In this document: positions 21,868-37,226 of the stretch, in pieces
Layout: every line of letters begins with the position of its first letter
Position numbering within the stretch: the stretch's first letter is position 1
The notes under the pieces: generated by a model
The model's input: only the letters and a program-made list of their open reading frames with translations
Told to the model about the DNA's origin: nothing
The model's database searches: none
Program-made: the position numbers and the translations under genes
From: Bacteroidota bacterium
GTDB taxonomy: Bacteria; Bacteroidota; Ignavibacteria; Ignavibacteriales; Ignavibacteriaceae
DNA length: 38,592 bases
Reading direction: 5' to 3'
Assembly (NCBI GenBank): GCA_021813585.1
Contig: JAKAJV010000084.1
Location: 1-38,592 of the forward strand

Positions 21868-22193
21868 AAAAAAGCGTTAAGCCGTTAATAGTATTTGTCG
21901 TTTTCATTTTTGTTTCCTCCACTCTATTAATATTGCTGTACGTCGGAATAAAATTGGAATGTGAAAAACTAACAAAGGAAAAAGTACTAACCGAAAATAA
22001 ACTTGTTGAAGTAAAAAATTGGAAGACGAATTTAATAGCTCAAGACCAGGCACTGTCGTCGGAAGAACGTATTGAGGCAATAGCACAGAATGAGCTGGGT
22101 ATGGTCCGCAGAACAGAGCCGCCGATCGTATTTAAAGTAAGTAAAGTTAGAATCGAAGAAATCTCAAAGGCAATCGAAAAGAAATATGAATAA
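21864..22193 (+). CDS. ftsL: FtsL-like division protein
   Basis: A 109-residue bitopic membrane protein. A short cytoplasmic start (MKKSVKP) is followed by one helix (about 8-28) and a periplasmic coiled-coil-like region (about 30-70, KLECEKLTKEKVLTENKL), then IEAIAQNELGMVRRTEPP, the conserved end of FtsL/DivIC-type proteins. It sits between rsmH and ftsI, the standard ftsL place, with overlaps at both ends. FtsL bridges FtsQ-FtsB and FtsW-FtsI and activates septal synthesis. The assignment depends mostly on position and topology because sequence conservation is low. Confidence 0.85.
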   Translation: MKKSVKPLIVFVVFIFVSSTLLILLYVGIKLECEKLTKEKVLTENKLVEVKNWKTNLIAQDQALSSEERIEAIAQNELGMVRRTEPPIVFKVSKVRIEEISKAIEKKYE

Positions 22194-24189
22194 TTCACGG
22201 GCATTAGTTGTCATAGTGTTCATCTTTATTCTATTCGTTGCATTGGCTTTTAGATTGTTTGACGTCCAAATTCTAAAAAGCGATGAACTGAAATATTATG
22301 CCCAGCGGCAGCAGATGACTGTAGAAAAGGTTAAAGCTGAAACCGGATTAATATACGACAGGAACAGCGTACTTCTCGTTTACAATAGGAATGATGTCTC
22401 ATTCTATCTCGATCTACGGATGGTTTCAAAAAAAGGCAAAGCAAAAATTGCGGACAGATTTTCAAAAGTATTTCATAAGAGCAGGCAATATTATCTCTCT
22501 ATGATGAACGAAGCGGGAAAGACTATTTGCCTGGAGAAAAAAGCTCCGAGCGATAAGGCTCTGCAGCTTAAAGATTTTAAAGTGAACGGCCTTTTCTCAA
22601 CGAATGATCCTACCAGAGTATTTTTTTATAAAGACCTGGCATCGCACGTGCTTGGCTATGTAGGCAGCGATAACCAGGGCGTTGATGGAATTTCCAAATC
22701 GTTTGAAGACCAGCTGGACGGTGAAGACGGAAGCATGCTAGTTTTGCGCGATGCGATAGGAGATATGATTACGGTCTCTGAAGAGCAGACTAAGCCGGCT
22801 GTGCCCGGGTTAAATTTATTTCTTACCATAGATAAATCGTACCAGAGCATTCTAGAAGAAGAATTGAAGAACGGCCTTGAGAAATACGGCGGCACTTCTG
22901 CTGTCGGCATTATCATGGATCCGAATACCGGCGAGATACTTTCCCTGGCAAATATGGATGACTTTGATCCTAACGAATATTGGAAGTACTCCGATACCGT
23001 TAGAAGAGACAGAGCAGTTACCGATACATATGAACCCGGCTCGACCTTTAAGACTTTCTCAATGGCTTCTCTTCTGGATAGGAACCTGTGCAATCTTAAC
23101 GAAGAAGTATTTACCGAGAACGGAAGGTATAAATTTGAAAATGTTTTTATAACCGATGCCCATAGAAGCGGCTGGCTTACGGCAAGGCAGGTAATTGAAG
23201 AATCCAGCAATATCGGTATGTCCAAACTCATCCAAAGAATTGACAACGATACTTATTATAAATATCTCAGAGCATTCGGCTTCGGTAACTATACCGCAAT
23301 TAAACTGCCCGGCGAAGTAAGAGGTACATTAAGAAAGCCGAACGATTGGAACGGTGTTACCAAGGCTTTCATGTCCTTCGGCTACGGTATTACAGTAACA
23401 CCTATCCAGCTGATTACTGCCTACTGCGCGGTGGTTAACGGAGGCTATTTGTACCAGCCTGAAGTTATTGAAAAGGAAGTTAAGCGTGACGGCGAGGTTG
23501 TATTTCAAAACCAGCCTAAGCTTATAAGAAGAGTAATATCAAGCGAGACGTCCGCCAGGATGCGGAACCTGCTCGTCGGTGTAGTGCAGGAAGGTACAGG
23601 TACAAATGCAAAGATCAGTTCGGTGTCTGTGGGAGGAAAGACGGGCACATCTCAAAAATTAATTGACGGTAAGTATTCCAAGCAGCAGTACAATTCCTCC
23701 TTCGTCGGATTTTTCCCCGCGGAATCTCCAAAGATTGTATGTTTAATTCTAGTTAACTCTCCAACAGTCGGACGGTACGGCGGATCGGTTGCGGCACCTA
23801 TTTTTAAAAATGTTGCTGAAAGAATTATCAATTTAAATCCTTCTTACTTCCGGAGCCAGGATAAAAATTCTAATGATGAAAAGAAGGAAATAGACGGGCT
23901 GTTTACAGACAATTCTAAAAATTCAAACCGAGGGGATTCAGTAAAAATTCCTGCGCAAAATATTATGGCGAATCTTTCCAACATTAATCCTAAAATAATG
24001 CCCGACTTGAAGAACAGCACTCTAAGAGATGCAATATCGGTTTTATCGAAATTAAAAATTAAGTATAAGGTAAACGGCTCTGGCACGATATGTTTCCAGA
24101 GCATCCAGCCCGGAGAACAGATTCACAGCGGTCTTATATGCACGCTTGACTGCAAAGAACCGGAAGTAACAGGAGCAGTTGTTTACTGA
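22186..24189 (+). CDS. ftsI: Penicillin-binding protein, septal transpeptidase, with C-terminal PASTA domain
   Basis: A 667-residue class B PBP that cross-links septal peptidoglycan in the periplasm. One N-terminal membrane anchor (about 7-25) precedes the PBP dimerisation domain (from about 45, with TGLIYDRN). The transpeptidase motifs are STFK (Ser286 to Lys289), SSN (340-342) and KTG (485-487, in GGKTGTSQ). GYGITVTPIQL is also characteristic. The tail (about 598-660, PDLKNSTLRDAISVLSKLKIK, then IQPGEQ) is one PASTA domain, which in some PBPs binds muropeptides. It overlaps ftsL by 8 bases and murE by one base (TGATG). Length is typical for a PASTA-bearing FtsI. Confidence 0.95.
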   Translation: MNNSRALVVIVFIFILFVALAFRLFDVQILKSDELKYYAQRQQMTVEKVKAETGLIYDRNSVLLVYNRNDVSFYLDLRMVSKKGKAKIADRFSKVFHKSRQYYLSMMNEAGKTICLEKKAPSDKALQLKDFKVNGLFSTNDPTRVFFYKDLASHVLGYVGSDNQGVDGISKSFEDQLDGEDGSMLVLRDAIGDMITVSEEQTKPAVPGLNLFLTIDKSYQSILEEELKNGLEKYGGTSAVGIIMDPNTGEILSLANMDDFDPNEYWKYSDTVRRDRAVTDTYEPGSTFKTFSMASLLDRNLCNLNEEVFTENGRYKFENVFITDAHRSGWLTARQVIEESSNIGMSKLIQRIDNDTYYKYLRAFGFGNYTAIKLPGEVRGTLRKPNDWNGVTKAFMSFGYGITVTPIQLITAYCAVVNGGYLYQPEVIEKEVKRDGEVVFQNQPKLIRRVISSETSARMRNLLVGVVQEGTGTNAKISSVSVGGKTGTSQKLIDGKYSKQQYNSSFVGFFPAESPKIVCLILVNSPTVGRYGGSVAAPIFKNVAERIINLNPSYFRSQDKNSNDEKKEIDGLFTDNSKNSNRGDSVKIPAQNIMANLSNINPKIMPDLKNSTLRDAISVLSKLKIKYKVNGSGTICFQSIQPGEQIHSGLICTLDCKEPEVTGAVVY

Positions 24190-29501: not shown

Positions 29502-30632
29502 ATGAAAAAATTAGCTTTAATAATATATTTTGACGCTTTTGTCCTTATGCTGCTCGGCTTAATAATAGTTATGAGCGCAAGCAGCACATACAGCGAGTTT
29601 AAATTCGACAGCTTGTTCCACATGTTCAATTCACATTTCTTCAAAGTTATTTTCGGGATAATTCTGATGACTCTTTTCAGCTTTATTCCGTACGAAGTAT
29701 ACAAGGACTTCAGCAAGCTTTCGCTGATTATAATTACCGTAATATTGGCAGTTACATTGTTTGTTGCGCCGGATATTAAAGGCGCAGGCAGATGGATACA
29801 CCTCGGGTTTTTATCTTTTCAGCCGGCAGACATAGCAAAGCTGCTTCTGCTCATTCATTTGTCGGTTATGCTGGAAGATAAAAAAGACTTGCTCGGCAAC
29901 TTTAAAGACGGGTTCCTTTATCTCTTTATCTGGGTAATTATTATTTCCTCCCTGGTTATTATCCAGCCTAATGTAAGCAACGGTATTCTCCTGGTTTTTG
30001 TTTCGTTAATTCTTCTTTACGTCGGCGGCGCAAAGTTAAGTCATATTTTCCTTTCGGCATTGGCATGTTTAATTGCCGGGGCAATTGTAGCGATGATGTT
30101 CGCGCATTCAAGGGAAAGAATATTAACTTTTATAAGCAGCGCCCGGCACGGCGGCGAACCTAATATTCAAGTAAGACAGGCATTGCTGGGGCTGGGAAGC
30201 GGTCATATTTTCGGAGTAGGGATGGGGCAGAGCCTGCAGAGTAATTTATTCCTGCCGGAAGCGTACGGAGATTTTATTTTCGCTATTCTTGGCGAAGAGC
30301 TCGGCTACATCGGATCGGTGATAATTCTTCTCAGTTATCTGCTGCTGTTTGCCTCTGGAATTCTGGTGGCTAAAAAAGCAAAGGATAGGTTCGGTCAGCT
30401 TCTGGCTTTCGGAATTACTTTTTCGATTACTGTGTACGCATTTATTAATATCGCAGTGGCTTCGGGCCTGGTTCCTACTACCGGCCTTCCGCTGCCGTTT
30501 ATAAGCTACGGCGGAACTTCGTTAACCATCGTATGTATTTCGGTCGGCATACTAGTGAACATAGCTTTGTCGAATTCAATTAAACCGAATATTGAAGTTC
30601 AACCTGTAACAAGCCAGGCGGCGCGCGCATGA
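29502..30632 (+). CDS. ftsW: Septal peptidoglycan glycosyltransferase FtsW
   Basis: A 376-residue SEDS-family polytopic membrane protein that polymerises lipid II, paired with the FtsI product. GAGRWIHLGFLSFQPADIAKL (about 94-114) carries QPAD where QPSE is usual. PEAYGDFIFAILGEELGYIG (about 252-271) contains the likely catalytic Asp257, with YGD in place of the commoner HTD/HSD. VPTTGLPLPFISYGGTSL is the signature loop. It starts at the base after the murD stop and overlaps murG (ATGA). RodA is the alternative SEDS protein, but the dcw position favours FtsW. Confidence 0.95.
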   Translation: MKKLALIIYFDAFVLMLLGLIIVMSASSTYSEFKFDSLFHMFNSHFFKVIFGIILMTLFSFIPYEVYKDFSKLSLIIITVILAVTLFVAPDIKGAGRWIHLGFLSFQPADIAKLLLLIHLSVMLEDKKDLLGNFKDGFLYLFIWVIIISSLVIIQPNVSNGILLVFVSLILLYVGGAKLSHIFLSALACLIAGAIVAMMFAHSRERILTFISSARHGGEPNIQVRQALLGLGSGHIFGVGMGQSLQSNLFLPEAYGDFIFAILGEELGYIGSVIILLSYLLLFASGILVAKKAKDRFGQLLAFGITFSITVYAFINIAVASGLVPTTGLPLPFISYGGTSLTIVCISVGILVNIALSNSIKPNIEVQPVTSQAARA

Positions 30633-31729
30633 AAACCGGAAGAACAAAATACAGGTTTTTATTTGCGGGCGGCGGCACCGGCGGGCATTTGTTCCCCGCA
30701 GTTGCAGTAGCGGAAAGAATAAAATTATTAATACCCGATGCGGATATTTTATTTGTCGGTACAAAATCCAGAATCGAAGGTAAAGTTGTGCCGCAGCTTG
30801 GCTACAAGTTTAAATCGATCTGGATAAAAGGATTTTCGAGAAAGCTTACGCTGGAAAATCTTTTATTCCCGGTTAAGCTTTTTGTGTCGCTTATTCAATC
30901 TTTACTAATAAACATGAGCTTTAAGCCCAAGGTAGCGATAGGCTCGGGCGGTTACGTCTCCGGTCCTGCTATTTGGGGTGCTTCGGTAATGGGAGCTAAA
31001 ATAATTCTGCTAGAGCAGAACAGTTACCCGGGAATTACTTCGCGGCTGCTAGAAAAGTACGCTGAGGAAATTCACATAAGCTTTGAAGACTCAAAAAAAT
31101 ATTTCCGCGATAAGAGCAAGCTGCATTTATCCGGCAACCCGGTGCGCAGTAGTTTCGCGGCTCTTTCAAAAGAGGAAGGGATGAAAGAATTCGGCTTGTC
31201 ACCGGATTTAAAAACATTATTAATTCTCGGCGGAAGTCTCGGCGCCGGATCAATTAACGAAGCTGCGGCTGCCTCAATAAATCAATTCAGTGGGAAGAAG
31301 ATTCAAATAATCTGGCAGACCGGGAAGTCGTATTTTGAAAAATATAAAAATTACAATTCGGAGTTAGTGCGGGTAATGCCTTTTATCGAAAGAATGAACC
31401 TTGCATACTCTGCGTGCGATCTGCTTTTGGCAAGGGCAGGTGCAACCACTATAGCCGAGATACTTGCGCTGGGCATCCCTTCGGTACTTGTACCTTCGCC
31501 TAACGTTGCGGAGAACCACCAGTACTACAATGTTAAGTCATTGTTCGATAAGGATGCGGCAGTTATGATTGAAGATAAGAATATAAAGGAAGAATTACCC
31601 GGTGCCGTATTAGGATTAATTTTCAACGAAGAAAAGCTGTCCGGACTCAAAAGAAATGCGTTAAGCTTAGGCAAGCCGGATGCAGCTTTGGTTATAGCGG
31701 AAAGTGCAATTAAATTTATAAATGTATAA
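30629..31729 (+). CDS. murG: Lipid I N-acetylglucosaminyltransferase
   Basis: A 366-residue GT28 glycosyltransferase bound to the inner face of the membrane, making lipid II from lipid I and UDP-GlcNAc. GGGTGGHLFPAVAVAE (14-29) is the N-terminal G-loop. GFSRKLTLENLLFPVKL, GSGGYVSGPAIWGA, LEQNSYPG, and LGGSLGAGSINEAA are typical. The C-terminal donor site SACDLLLARAGATTIAEILA and GIPSVLVPSPNVAENHQYYN complete it. The overlap with ftsW (ATGA) implies coupling, and the next gene starts 2 bases after its stop. Length fits (about 355-370). Confidence 0.97.
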   Translation: MKTGRTKYRFLFAGGGTGGHLFPAVAVAERIKLLIPDADILFVGTKSRIEGKVVPQLGYKFKSIWIKGFSRKLTLENLLFPVKLFVSLIQSLLINMSFKPKVAIGSGGYVSGPAIWGASVMGAKIILLEQNSYPGITSRLLEKYAEEIHISFEDSKKYFRDKSKLHLSGNPVRSSFAALSKEEGMKEFGLSPDLKTLLILGGSLGAGSINEAAAASINQFSGKKIQIIWQTGKSYFEKYKNYNSELVRVMPFIERMNLAYSACDLLLARAGATTIAEILALGIPSVLVPSPNVAENHQYYNVKSLFDKDAAVMIEDKNIKEELPGAVLGLIFNEEKLSGLKRNALSLGKPDAALVIAESAIKFINV

Positions 31730-31731
31730 AG

Positions 31732-32202
31732 ATGGAAAGCAGCGTAAATAAAAAAATATTTAAATATAATATGTCGTTTTATTATCAATCGACTATTATA
31801 TATTTCGTTGCATTTTTGTTGTACGTAATTGTCCGCGGCGAGTTTGTAGAAGGTTCTTTTAAGCTTATTACGAAAGACCCGATAATTTATTTTTTCGCCA
31901 TCATCGTTTGTGTTTCTTTGGTTGCCCTGCTGTATAATCTGTACCTAAACCGGCATCTTGAAATAAGCGGCAGTGAGATTTCGTTTTTAACTAGAAAATT
32001 CAAAAAGACTTTTTTAATGAGCGAGGTACTGGAAATAAAGATCTCAAGGCCCGGCAGGCGCAGCAACAACCAGCGCTTCCGGTTAATTAGAATTAAGATT
32101 AGAAACAGAAGACGCCAGGTTATAATAAGGCCTTATGATTATGAGAACGAAAACGATTTAATTACAATCTTTAATGAAATAAAAGAGAGTTTGGGAAACT
32201 AA
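31732..32202 (+). CDS. Unassigned two-helix membrane protein inside the dcw operon
   Basis: A 156-residue protein I do not recognise. Two membrane helices (about 18-35 and 50-71) are separated by a short loop. A soluble domain (about 74-150) follows with alternating beta-strand pattern (LEISGSEISFLTRKFKKTFLM, IKISRPGRR, FRLIRIKIRNRRRQVIIRPYDY) and a final helix (DLITIFNEIKESL), reminiscent of a bacterial PH-like (bPH2/YdbT-type) domain. It is very basic around 105-128, where it may meet phospholipid head groups or lipid-linked intermediates. It sits exactly between murG (2-base gap) and murC (3-base gap) in an otherwise standard operon, so it is co-expressed with and probably related to lipid II handling or division. 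The link is by context only. Confidence 0.8.
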   Translation: MESSVNKKIFKYNMSFYYQSTIIYFVAFLLYVIVRGEFVEGSFKLITKDPIIYFFAIIVCVSLVALLYNLYLNRHLEISGSEISFLTRKFKKTFLMSEVLEIKISRPGRRSNNQRFRLIRIKIRNRRRQVIIRPYDYENENDLITIFNEIKESLGN

Positions 32203-32205
32203 AGA

Positions 32206-33576
32206 ATGTTTAAGAATATTAAGAAGGTTCACTTCGTTGGTATAGGCGGAATAGGAATGAGCGGTATTGCAGAAATACTGTTGAACCAGGGATTTGAAAT
32301 TTCCGGCTCGGATAAAGCTCTTACAGACATAACTGCTCACTTAAGCAGCCTAGGCATTAAAATATACGAAGGGCATTCACCGGAAAATTTAAAAGATGTT
32401 GATGTGCTGGTTTATTCCTCCGCGGTTGCGCTGAACAATCCGGAAGTTAAAGCGGCAATTGAAAGGAAGATTCCCATCATCAAGCGCTCCGAAATGCTTG
32501 CCGAGTGTATGAGGATGAAATACGGAATAGGCATAGCCGGCACGCACGGAAAGACAACTACAACTTCGATGGTCGGTTTAACATTAACAGAAGGCGGTAT
32601 AGACCCGACTATAATTGTCGGTGGAAAGTTGAGCGGGCTCGGCGGAACTAATGCAAGGCTCGGCCAGGGCGAATTCATCGTTGTTGAGGCTGATGAGTTT
32701 GACAGGACGTTCTTAAAACTTACTCCTACTATTGCTGCGCTTACAACTTTGGAAAGCGAGCACCTGGATACTTATAAGGATCTGGACGACATAAAAGCAG
32801 CCTTCGTTCAGTTTGCGAACAAAGTTCCCTTTTACGGCTTCGTAGTTCTTTGCATGGATGAGCCCGCATTGCAGGACATAATACCGCAGATAAATAAGAA
32901 GATTTTTAGTTACGGTCTTACTGCACAGGCGGATATCCGCGCTGTGGATATTTCACACGATAAGTTTACCAGTTCATTTACCGTTAAATACAAAGGCGAT
33001 GAAATAGGCAAGCTGAACTTGAAAGTTCCGGGGATTCACAATGTAAAAAATTCTCTTGTCGCGGTCTGCATAGCCAGGGAACTCGGAATAGAATTTAGTA
33101 AGATTAAGAAAGCGCTGGAATCGTTCTCAGGCGTTTACAGAAGATTCGAAGTAAAATACGATAACGAAGTGCTCGTGATAGATGATTATGCGCATCATCC
33201 TACCGAAACCAGCGCAACTCTTGCCGGAATTAGGAACGGATGGGACAGAAGATTAGTGGCCGTATTCCAGCCGCATCTATTTTCCAGAACTAGAGACTTC
33301 TACCAGGAGTTCGGAAGATCGTTCTTGAATTCGGATATTTTTATATGTACCGATATTTACCCGGCAAGGGAAGAACCGATAGAAGGCGTAACGGGAGAAT
33401 TGATCGCGGAAGCCGCCAGGAAGTTCGGTCATAAGAATGTTATTTATGTTGAAGATAAGACGAAGGTCCCGGATAAGCTATCCGAGATAAAAAAAGACGG
33501 CGACATAATTATTACGATGGGTGCCGGCGATATCTGGAAGTACGGTGAATTGTTTGTGCAATCGTTAAAAAACTGA
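32206..33576 (+). CDS. murC: UDP-N-acetylmuramate:L-alanine ligase
   Basis: A 456-residue Mur ligase adding the first stem residue, L-Ala. VGIGGIGMSGIAEIL (11-25) is the UDP-binding motif specific to MurC, and SGSDKALTDIT follows. The ATP loop is GTHGKTTTTS (112-121), with His replacing the Asn of MurD/E as expected. VVEADEFDRTFLKL, EHLDTYKDLDDIKAAF, and IDDYAHHPTETSATL are family marks. ATG 32206 follows the unassigned gene by 3 bases; ftsQ starts 6 bases after the stop. The usual neighbours murB and ddl are absent. Confidence 0.97.
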   Translation: MFKNIKKVHFVGIGGIGMSGIAEILLNQGFEISGSDKALTDITAHLSSLGIKIYEGHSPENLKDVDVLVYSSAVALNNPEVKAAIERKIPIIKRSEMLAECMRMKYGIGIAGTHGKTTTTSMVGLTLTEGGIDPTIIVGGKLSGLGGTNARLGQGEFIVVEADEFDRTFLKLTPTIAALTTLESEHLDTYKDLDDIKAAFVQFANKVPFYGFVVLCMDEPALQDIIPQINKKIFSYGLTAQADIRAVDISHDKFTSSFTVKYKGDEIGKLNLKVPGIHNVKNSLVAVCIARELGIEFSKIKKALESFSGVYRRFEVKYDNEVLVIDDYAHHPTETSATLAGIRNGWDRRLVAVFQPHLFSRTRDFYQEFGRSFLNSDIFICTDIYPAREEPIEGVTGELIAEAARKFGHKNVIYVEDKTKVPDKLSEIKKDGDIIITMGAGDIWKYGELFVQSLKN

Positions 33577-37010: not shown

Positions 37011-37226
37011 TTATTCGTCGCTGGGCCTGGATTCGACAAAAATATTGTTCGATTCATCCAGTGCTACTATTATCCGGTTTGGCCGGCAGCATATCCTGCA
37101 GTCTTCAATAAAGTCCTGTTTGCCGTCTACCGTTAAATCTAACCATACTGTATTTACTTCTCCGCAGTACTGGCATGTCCACAGAATGTCTTCATCGGTT
37201 GTCTGCATTTTTTCTTTATTGCTCAT
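37011..37226 (-). CDS. CPXCG-motif Cys-rich small protein
   Basis: A 71-residue protein on the minus strand. The first pair, CQYCGE (Cys18 and Cys21), and a second cluster, EDCRICCRPNRI (from about 41), with VDGKQDFIEDC between, match the Cys_rich_CPXCG family (CPxCG...QxYxEDCxxCCRP), which probably binds zinc. The first motif is CQYCG rather than CPxCG. The C-terminus ends VALDESNNIFVESRPSDE. The start ATG at 37226 has GAGAG about 7 bases upstream. It is convergent with ftsZ, about 107 bases away. Function is unknown. The overlapping plus-strand ORF is a shadow. Confidence 0.87.
   Translation of the reverse strand: MSNKEKMQTTDEDILWTCQYCGEVNTVWLDLTVDGKQDFIEDCRICCRPNRIIVALDESNNIFVESRPSDE

Follow-up and report, generated by a model that had tools for sequence, protein, structure and literature searches.

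The dcw cluster in the window, which is the whole stretch of 38,592 nucleotides that was analysed, carries between murG and murC an intact, real gene under purifying selection, here called gene X, which encodes a membrane protein of 156 amino acids with a predicted PH-like fold. We tentatively propose, with a confidence somewhat short of an even chance, that X assists the MurG step as a PH-like accessory protein in the inner membrane; the proposal rests on gene order, and the mechanism attached to it is conjectural. With its place behind murG throughout an order, retained in three more families also where murC has moved elsewhere, this unannotated membrane protein is a natural candidate for a MurG-placement factor. 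X is also a recurrent, unnamed addition to a well-studied cluster, and it led to a second unnamed envelope family, gene Y. The features concerned in the window are:

30629 to 31729, plus strand: murG, over the NCBIfam cut-off of TIGR01133; neighbour of X in 44 of the 54 phylum-sample genomes that hold X
31732 to 32202, plus strand: gene X, a 156-amino-acid membrane protein with a predicted PH-like domain; open reading frame, homologues at the same site, purifying selection
31753 to 31767, plus strand: X codons 8-12, a short N-terminal strand in the model, before membrane helix 1 and possibly PH strand beta-1
31774 to 31836, plus strand: X membrane helix 1, residues 15-35, with a conserved FYYQST motif; from the model, hydropathy and alignments
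31879 to 31947, plus strand: X membrane helix 2, residues 50-72, beginning at a conserved DP (49-50); from the model, hydropathy and alignments
31951 to 32199, plus strand: basic, predicted PH-like domain of X, residues 74-156, probably cytoplasmic; from the model, comparison with PDB folds and charge
32206 to 33576, plus strand: murC, downstream neighbour of X in the dcw arrangement, over the NCBIfam cut-off of TIGR01082

The reading frame of X begins with ATG, 2 bases after the end of murG at 31729, and ends 3 bases before the start of murC at 32206. An earlier note on this DNA had described a 156-residue frame at these distances within an otherwise standard dcw operon, and the coordinates 31732 to 32202 were confirmed. 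The gene order was mraZ, rsmH, ftsL, a PBP gene at the ftsI position, murE, murF, mraY, murD, ftsW, murG, X, murC, ftsQ, ftsA and ftsZ. MraZ, MurG, MurC, RsmH, MurE, MurF, MraY, MurD, FtsA and FtsZ passed NCBIfam cut-offs; FtsW (307.8 of 337.5 bits) and FtsL (33.2 of 42.45 bits) were under those cut-offs and over Pfam's, and FtsQ was detected by Pfam alone, not by NCBIfam. The members of the operon were identified in this way, with only sub-cut-off matches at the ftsI position, where the PBP (22186 to 24189, plus strand) matched several PBP models, the best being SpoVD at 433.9 of 688 bits. About 100 bases past ftsZ, the minus strand encodes a 71-amino-acid CPXCG cysteine-rich protein (37011 to 37226; PF14255, E 3.9e-16). 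Stops were found inside X in none of the 29 strong homologue matches described below, and frames were open at the same place in other genomes. The dN/dS ratio of X was computed for six pairs, three of which were dropped with dS saturated or not computable; the three pairs with usable dS gave 0.09, 0.05 and 0.11.

A protein search with X across 59 genomes (its own and those of the genus, family and order) yielded 32 matches at E <= 0.01, of which 29, the window's own included, were strong (E <= 1.4e-21) and three were weak. The weak matches (G026, G010 and G058; G numbers denote genomes, L numbers loci and f codes families of the genome sample) had E of 0.0015-0.0064, two of them with internal stops, and were not counted as X; the 28-row profile used below found no X in G026. 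At the strong loci, murG lay directly upstream of X in 29 of 29 and murC directly downstream in 28 of 29, the 29th locus (L028) having a contig edge inside X. The claim that X is a conserved dcw member lacking a family assignment was thus sustained by the 28 strong loci at which it stands between the two genes. A single scan of named genomes with patterns from f1 and f3 proteins, the one search to reach outside the phylum, returned 46 loci, their titles mostly Ignavibacteria, Ignavibacteriales, Ignavibacteriaceae, Ignavibacterium, Bacteroidetes or Bacteroidota. At these loci murG was seen in 45 and murC in 45, with the exceptions (L097 and L104) at contig ends. The 46 loci are not independent of the 59 relatives: at least 22, on contigs equal in length to one already holding X, are probably the same records and therefore provide no extra evidence, and 24 may be additional. 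At one of them (L091:3905-4980), murG of the Ignavibacteriota chromosome CP053447.1 matched in two frames, likely a frame-shift in the record.

MurG was searched in 27 of the 30 relatives lacking a strong X match, G048, G052 and G055 being left out, and in G199; among these 28 genomes, 27 gave one match and G010 (85% complete) gave none. With G007, in which murG is cut by a contig end, excluded from the count, X was absent and murC came right after murG in 26 of 26 readable relatives, which fits the earlier statement that the two genes are normally adjacent. These cells therefore do without X. The spacing between the murG and murC alignments was about 15-52 bases in 25 of the 26 and 180 in L149, and all 14 f2 genomes searched lacked X and had murG adjacent to murC. 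The roughly 180 bases in L149 (1321-1500; G043, an X-less f2 genome) could be a remnant.

In the phylum sample, a 28-row profile (alignment A1) found X in 54 of 296 genomes at E <= 0.001. The order was murG-X-murC in 31 of these (f1, f3, f4, f5, f8, f10, f12-f16 and f19) and murG-X without murC in the stretch read in 13 (eight of f7, three of f6 and two of f11), and X lay away from murG in the other 10 (f6, f9, f11, f17 and f18); murG adjoined X in 44 of the 54. X recurred at its dcw position across genera, and comparison of homologues and their neighbourhoods, the check suggested by the earlier note, did not place them mainly outside dcw operons. None of the 73 FMO-positive (green-sulphur-type) genomes of the sample held X. 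At one locus of G097, assembled in one contig (L130:3949-4429), X appeared frame-shifted, with two matches in overlapping frames and murG elsewhere; this copy is possibly decaying, or the record may hold a sequencing slip.

The best matches to murC and ftsW were mapped in the 13 murG-X genomes. In G111, a single contig, murG-X lay at 1.56 Mb, the best murC match at 0.95 Mb and the best ftsW match at 0.72 Mb, and in G236 murC shared a contig with murG at a distance of about 11 kb. A separate contig carried murC in the remaining 11 genomes, and likewise the best ftsW match in the 12 genomes other than G111; such draft contigs give no distance. MurG matches at E <= 1e-20 numbered exactly one in each of 26 genomes, namely the 23 non-dcw genomes and three of dcw type. 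A MurG tree of 103 rows was built by a quick method, which left 34 of its 100 inner branches open; it did not include L160, whose murG is truncated at a contig end, nor duplicate or named loci. The 23 non-dcw genomes grouped together on it with support 95, along with two f13 rows of dcw type, and the retained pairing may therefore stem from one break-up. The presence of X needed four changes on the tree, two of them forced by well-supported branches. The murG-X pairing has thus survived the loss of the dcw arrangement, though that loss may have happened only once, in a common ancestor.

Within the cluster, X was tightly coupled to its neighbours, as had been proposed. With the start closest to murG, 19 of 31 f1/f3 loci had a 4-base overlap of murG and X; homology-based starts gave 18 of 29. 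The murG-X distance in the 31 loci ranged from -17 to +14 (+2 in the window), and the X-murC distance from -8 to +5 in the 28 f1/f3 loci measured. Among 23 loci of other families, a gap of more than 100 bases preceded X in four and followed it in five; the value of -304 at L039 is an artefact of start choice. About 430-450 bases separated X from murC at L041, L107 and L112 (f10 and f14). Co-adaptation of MurG and X was considered and gave no clear sign: strongly differing columns between X-holders and X-less genomes made up 3.0% of MurG and 2.9% of MurC at the same threshold, with no excess. Mean divergence between the two groups was higher in MurG (0.144) than in MurC (0.081), the seven most divergent MurG columns included five within 47-114, and the strongly differing MurG columns mostly followed ancestry. 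At column 67 the X-less L140, L142 and L147, which stand amid X-holders on the tree, kept the X-type residue, and we make no claim of co-adaptation.

An AlphaFold2 model of X, built on the 28-row alignment, reached a mean pLDDT of 84.7 and a pTM of 0.68. It held helices at residues 15-35 and 50-72, strands from 75 to 132, a C-terminal helix at 140-155 and a strand at 8-12; hydropathy agreed with the two modelled membrane helices, and the model showed a PH-type beta barrel with a capping C-terminal helix. Foldseek returned PH, PTB and related domains (best E 0.014), and the best VIA-align match was PDB 3dcx (Z 8.7, rmsd 2.7, 89 residues aligned), with 16 chains at Z >= 8 and mainly PH, PTB, GLUE and FERM-type domains among the matches listed. 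Because the Foldseek E was no better than 0.014, the PH-like call rests on the consistency of this picture; with a fairly confident model, the predicted fold of X is PH-like. The listed PH alignments begin at residues 1-8 of the model, and the N-terminal strand may therefore serve as PH beta-1, pairing with the PH sheet, with the membrane hairpin inserted after it.

Charge was compared in alignment A4, which comprised 49 diverse X members, used 10 of the 28 A1 rows and left out L130 (frame-shifted), seven duplicates and six others (L039, L043, L044, L116, L121 and L126). Residues 74-156 of window X contain 19 K+R against 10 D+E, and every one of the 49 aligned homologues had a net positive charge in its C-terminal part (+6 to +19, C-terminal tails included). 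Median net charges were +1 for the N-tail, -2 for the inter-helix loop and +12 for the C-terminal part. By the positive-inside rule, this pattern would place both ends of X in the cytoplasm, and the PH-like domain probably faces that side. Model, fold comparison, hydropathy and charge agreed with the two membrane helices and basic, PH-like domain that the earlier note had read from the letters.

Window X reached no curated cut-off in Pfam or NCBIfam. Its sole Pfam match, DUF2663, was below cut-off (14.7 of 25.2 bits) and spanned residues 12-66, the membrane part; its NCBIfam match to PRK11056, at 14.6 of 127 bits, was likewise below cut-off, and no useful match emerged when sequences were compared with those of solved structures (best E 1.2 and 0.69). 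The proposed comparison with bPH2/YdbT domains held for architecture and failed for family membership. YdbS (159 residues) is described in PMC8657885 as a pair of N-terminal membrane helices with one PH-like domain after them, an architecture common to it and X (156 residues). Nothing in the genome of the window matched the family bPH_2 (PF03703, formerly DUF304, YdbS/YdbT) at E <= 0.01, and the family was not among the Pfam matches of X at E <= 1; hhalign of the X profile against four bPH_2 proteins of relatives gave a probability of 0.6%, a weak test with few rows. The neighbours of window X also differ, being murG and murC and not a ydbT-like gene.

Members of the X family gave weak matches to Pfam bPH_10 (5 of 49, best E 8.9e-5), bPH_6 (2 of 49, best E 4.1e-4) and bPH_4 (1 of 49, 3.5e-5; 5 of the first 28 at E <= 1) and to NCBIfam STM3941 (6 of 49, best E 0.0027), whereas window X matched none of these at E <= 0.1. 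Unrelated families matched single members comparably (DUF6585 8.1e-4, FtsH_ext 1.5e-4, NuoC-type 1.2e-4), and the PH assignment therefore rests on the model more than on profiles. DUF2244, a family with two helices plus a PH domain, was absent from the Pfam matches of window X and from the 25 families listed out of the 38 that matched the 49 members. The best fold match was to the PH domains of DUF1696/PF08000 (PDB 3dcx and 3hsa), yet at 2% identity. Those domains are reported to be oligomeric and mostly electronegative, whereas X is predicted to be membrane-anchored and basic, and for the bacterial PH domains whose structures they solved, Xu et al. argue against direct membrane binding (PMC2817789). 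X seems to represent a branch, so far undescribed, of the bacterial PH-like proteins that are anchored in the membrane; no description of the gene appeared in titles and abstract openings on dcw clusters, bacterial PH domains, MurG recruitment and Ignavibacterium album division.

MurG has to reach its lipid substrate at the membrane. X stands with murG in gene order, and MurG is therefore its likeliest partner. The PH-like domain would lie on the cytoplasmic side of the inner leaflet, where X would hold or regulate MurG at the membrane as a platform. It would contact MurG, or acidic lipid head groups or the pyrophosphate carried by undecaprenyl intermediates, or both protein and lipid, and lipid I would in this way be converted to lipid II where needed. 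The basic PH-like domain could offer a surface for acidic lipids or for MurG, and the lipid-intermediate role suggested by the earlier note stays conjectural in the same sense. Because many relatives are without X, it would be a placement or efficiency factor and not a core enzyme. MurG is essential, and the E. coli enzyme is reported to attach to the inner membrane chiefly by hydrophobic contact, using a patch with basic residues around it, and to occur in complexes with MreB and division proteins (PMC2170320). Placement of MurG is likewise what we propose for X; the E. coli partners are different proteins. Since lineages can lack X, the proposal can be tested by adding X to a laboratory host.

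The accessory reading was favoured by murG lying directly upstream at all 29 strong loci and adjacent in 44 of the 54 phylum-sample genomes, and by f6, f7 and f11, which keep X behind murG though murC has gone from next door; against it stand the 10 of 54 X genes not beside murG, the 26 relatives with adjacent murG-murC that lack X, the chance that the pairing was retained through one break-up, the lack of an excess of strongly differing MurG columns and the view of Xu et al. on bacterial PH domains. The main rival, which we regard as unlikely though still of real weight, is that X is a PH protein of the YdbS kind with a general role in the inner membrane or in envelope homeostasis, which shares the murG transcript for dosage only. 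The common architecture of two helices and a PH domain (PMC8657885), the absence of X from 26 readable relatives and the lack of an excess of strongly differing MurG columns all suit it, as do the varied neighbours at the loci examined away from murG: an ABC-2 permease at L109, a hexapeptide transferase at L122, an ABC ATPase two genes on at L125 and a prolyl oligopeptidase at L132. It leaves unexplained why X stands behind murG, and not behind murC or ftsW, in 13 non-dcw genomes, unless these reflect one ancestral event. A division-specific factor, as the earlier note had allowed, would agree with the position of X amid ftsW, ftsQ, ftsA and ftsZ in dcw-type genomes; the idea lost ground, and we judge it very unlikely, as ftsW is elsewhere in the 13 murG-X genomes without nearby murC, 26 relatives in which murG and murC adjoin lack X, and relatives with an intact murD-ftsW-murG-murC order lack it too. 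For a chance or decaying frame, the frame-shifted look of the distant G097 copy can be cited, and the dN/dS of 0.05-0.11 in three pairs and the 29 strong matches without an internal stop contradict it, leaving it next to no probability.

The accessory reading of X must also be set beside gene Y, whose copy in the window's genome is:

L223:6154-6792 (G000:C5:16153-16791), outside the window, plus strand: gene Y, between M48 (htpX-type) and YfiO (bamD-type) genes

Y starts with a signal-like helix and carries at its C-terminus a membrane segment that ends near RSK. It was present in 55 of the 59 relatives, X-holding or not, and in 110 of the 296 phylum-sample genomes, and directly followed X in 10 of the 13 murG-X genomes, 6 of the 10 others and none of the 31 of dcw type (16 of 54 in total). 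Pfam gave sub-cut-off matches only for 10 Y proteins (nine from behind X, and L138 from an X-less genome), and Y of the window's genome had no Pfam match at E <= 0.01 and no NCBIfam match at E <= 1e-10. With a mean pLDDT of 90.6, its model returned 27 Foldseek matches at E <= 0.001, most of which, including the top ones, were LptE/LptDE by title; the predicted fold of Y is LptE-like. VIA-align scored LpoB at 7.7 and LptE at 6.6 and below, with none at Z >= 8. A relationship between X and Y was rejected, their profile comparison giving a probability of 1%.

X and Y, the latter read as a tail-anchored protein with an LptE-like periplasmic domain, might form a two-part envelope module that connects the surface of the inner membrane with assembly of the outer membrane or of lipopolysaccharide; the tie to murG would then be historical. 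We consider this improbable. It is consistent with Y directly behind X in 16 X genomes, with the confident, mostly LptE/LptDE-matching Y model, with the place of Y between htpX-type and bamD-type genes, and with Y in 50 of 54 genomes with X against 60 of 242 without it; Y is not beside X in any of the 31 dcw-type genomes, relatives lacking X keep Y, and LpoB ranked above LptE in VIA-align. A combined arrangement, in which X as a lipid-reading partner of MurG would, with Y, couple inner-leaflet lipid II synthesis to outer-membrane assembly as a trans-membrane pair, appears a shade more doubtful still, and we know of no counterpart in model organisms of a pair coordinating inner and outer envelope layers in this manner. 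By BLAST labels, bamD lay at most two genes from Y in 7 of 20 further stretches (L262, L265, L266, L267, L268, L274 and L277), 19 of which had been chosen for Y, with Y missed by the gene caller in several of the 19.
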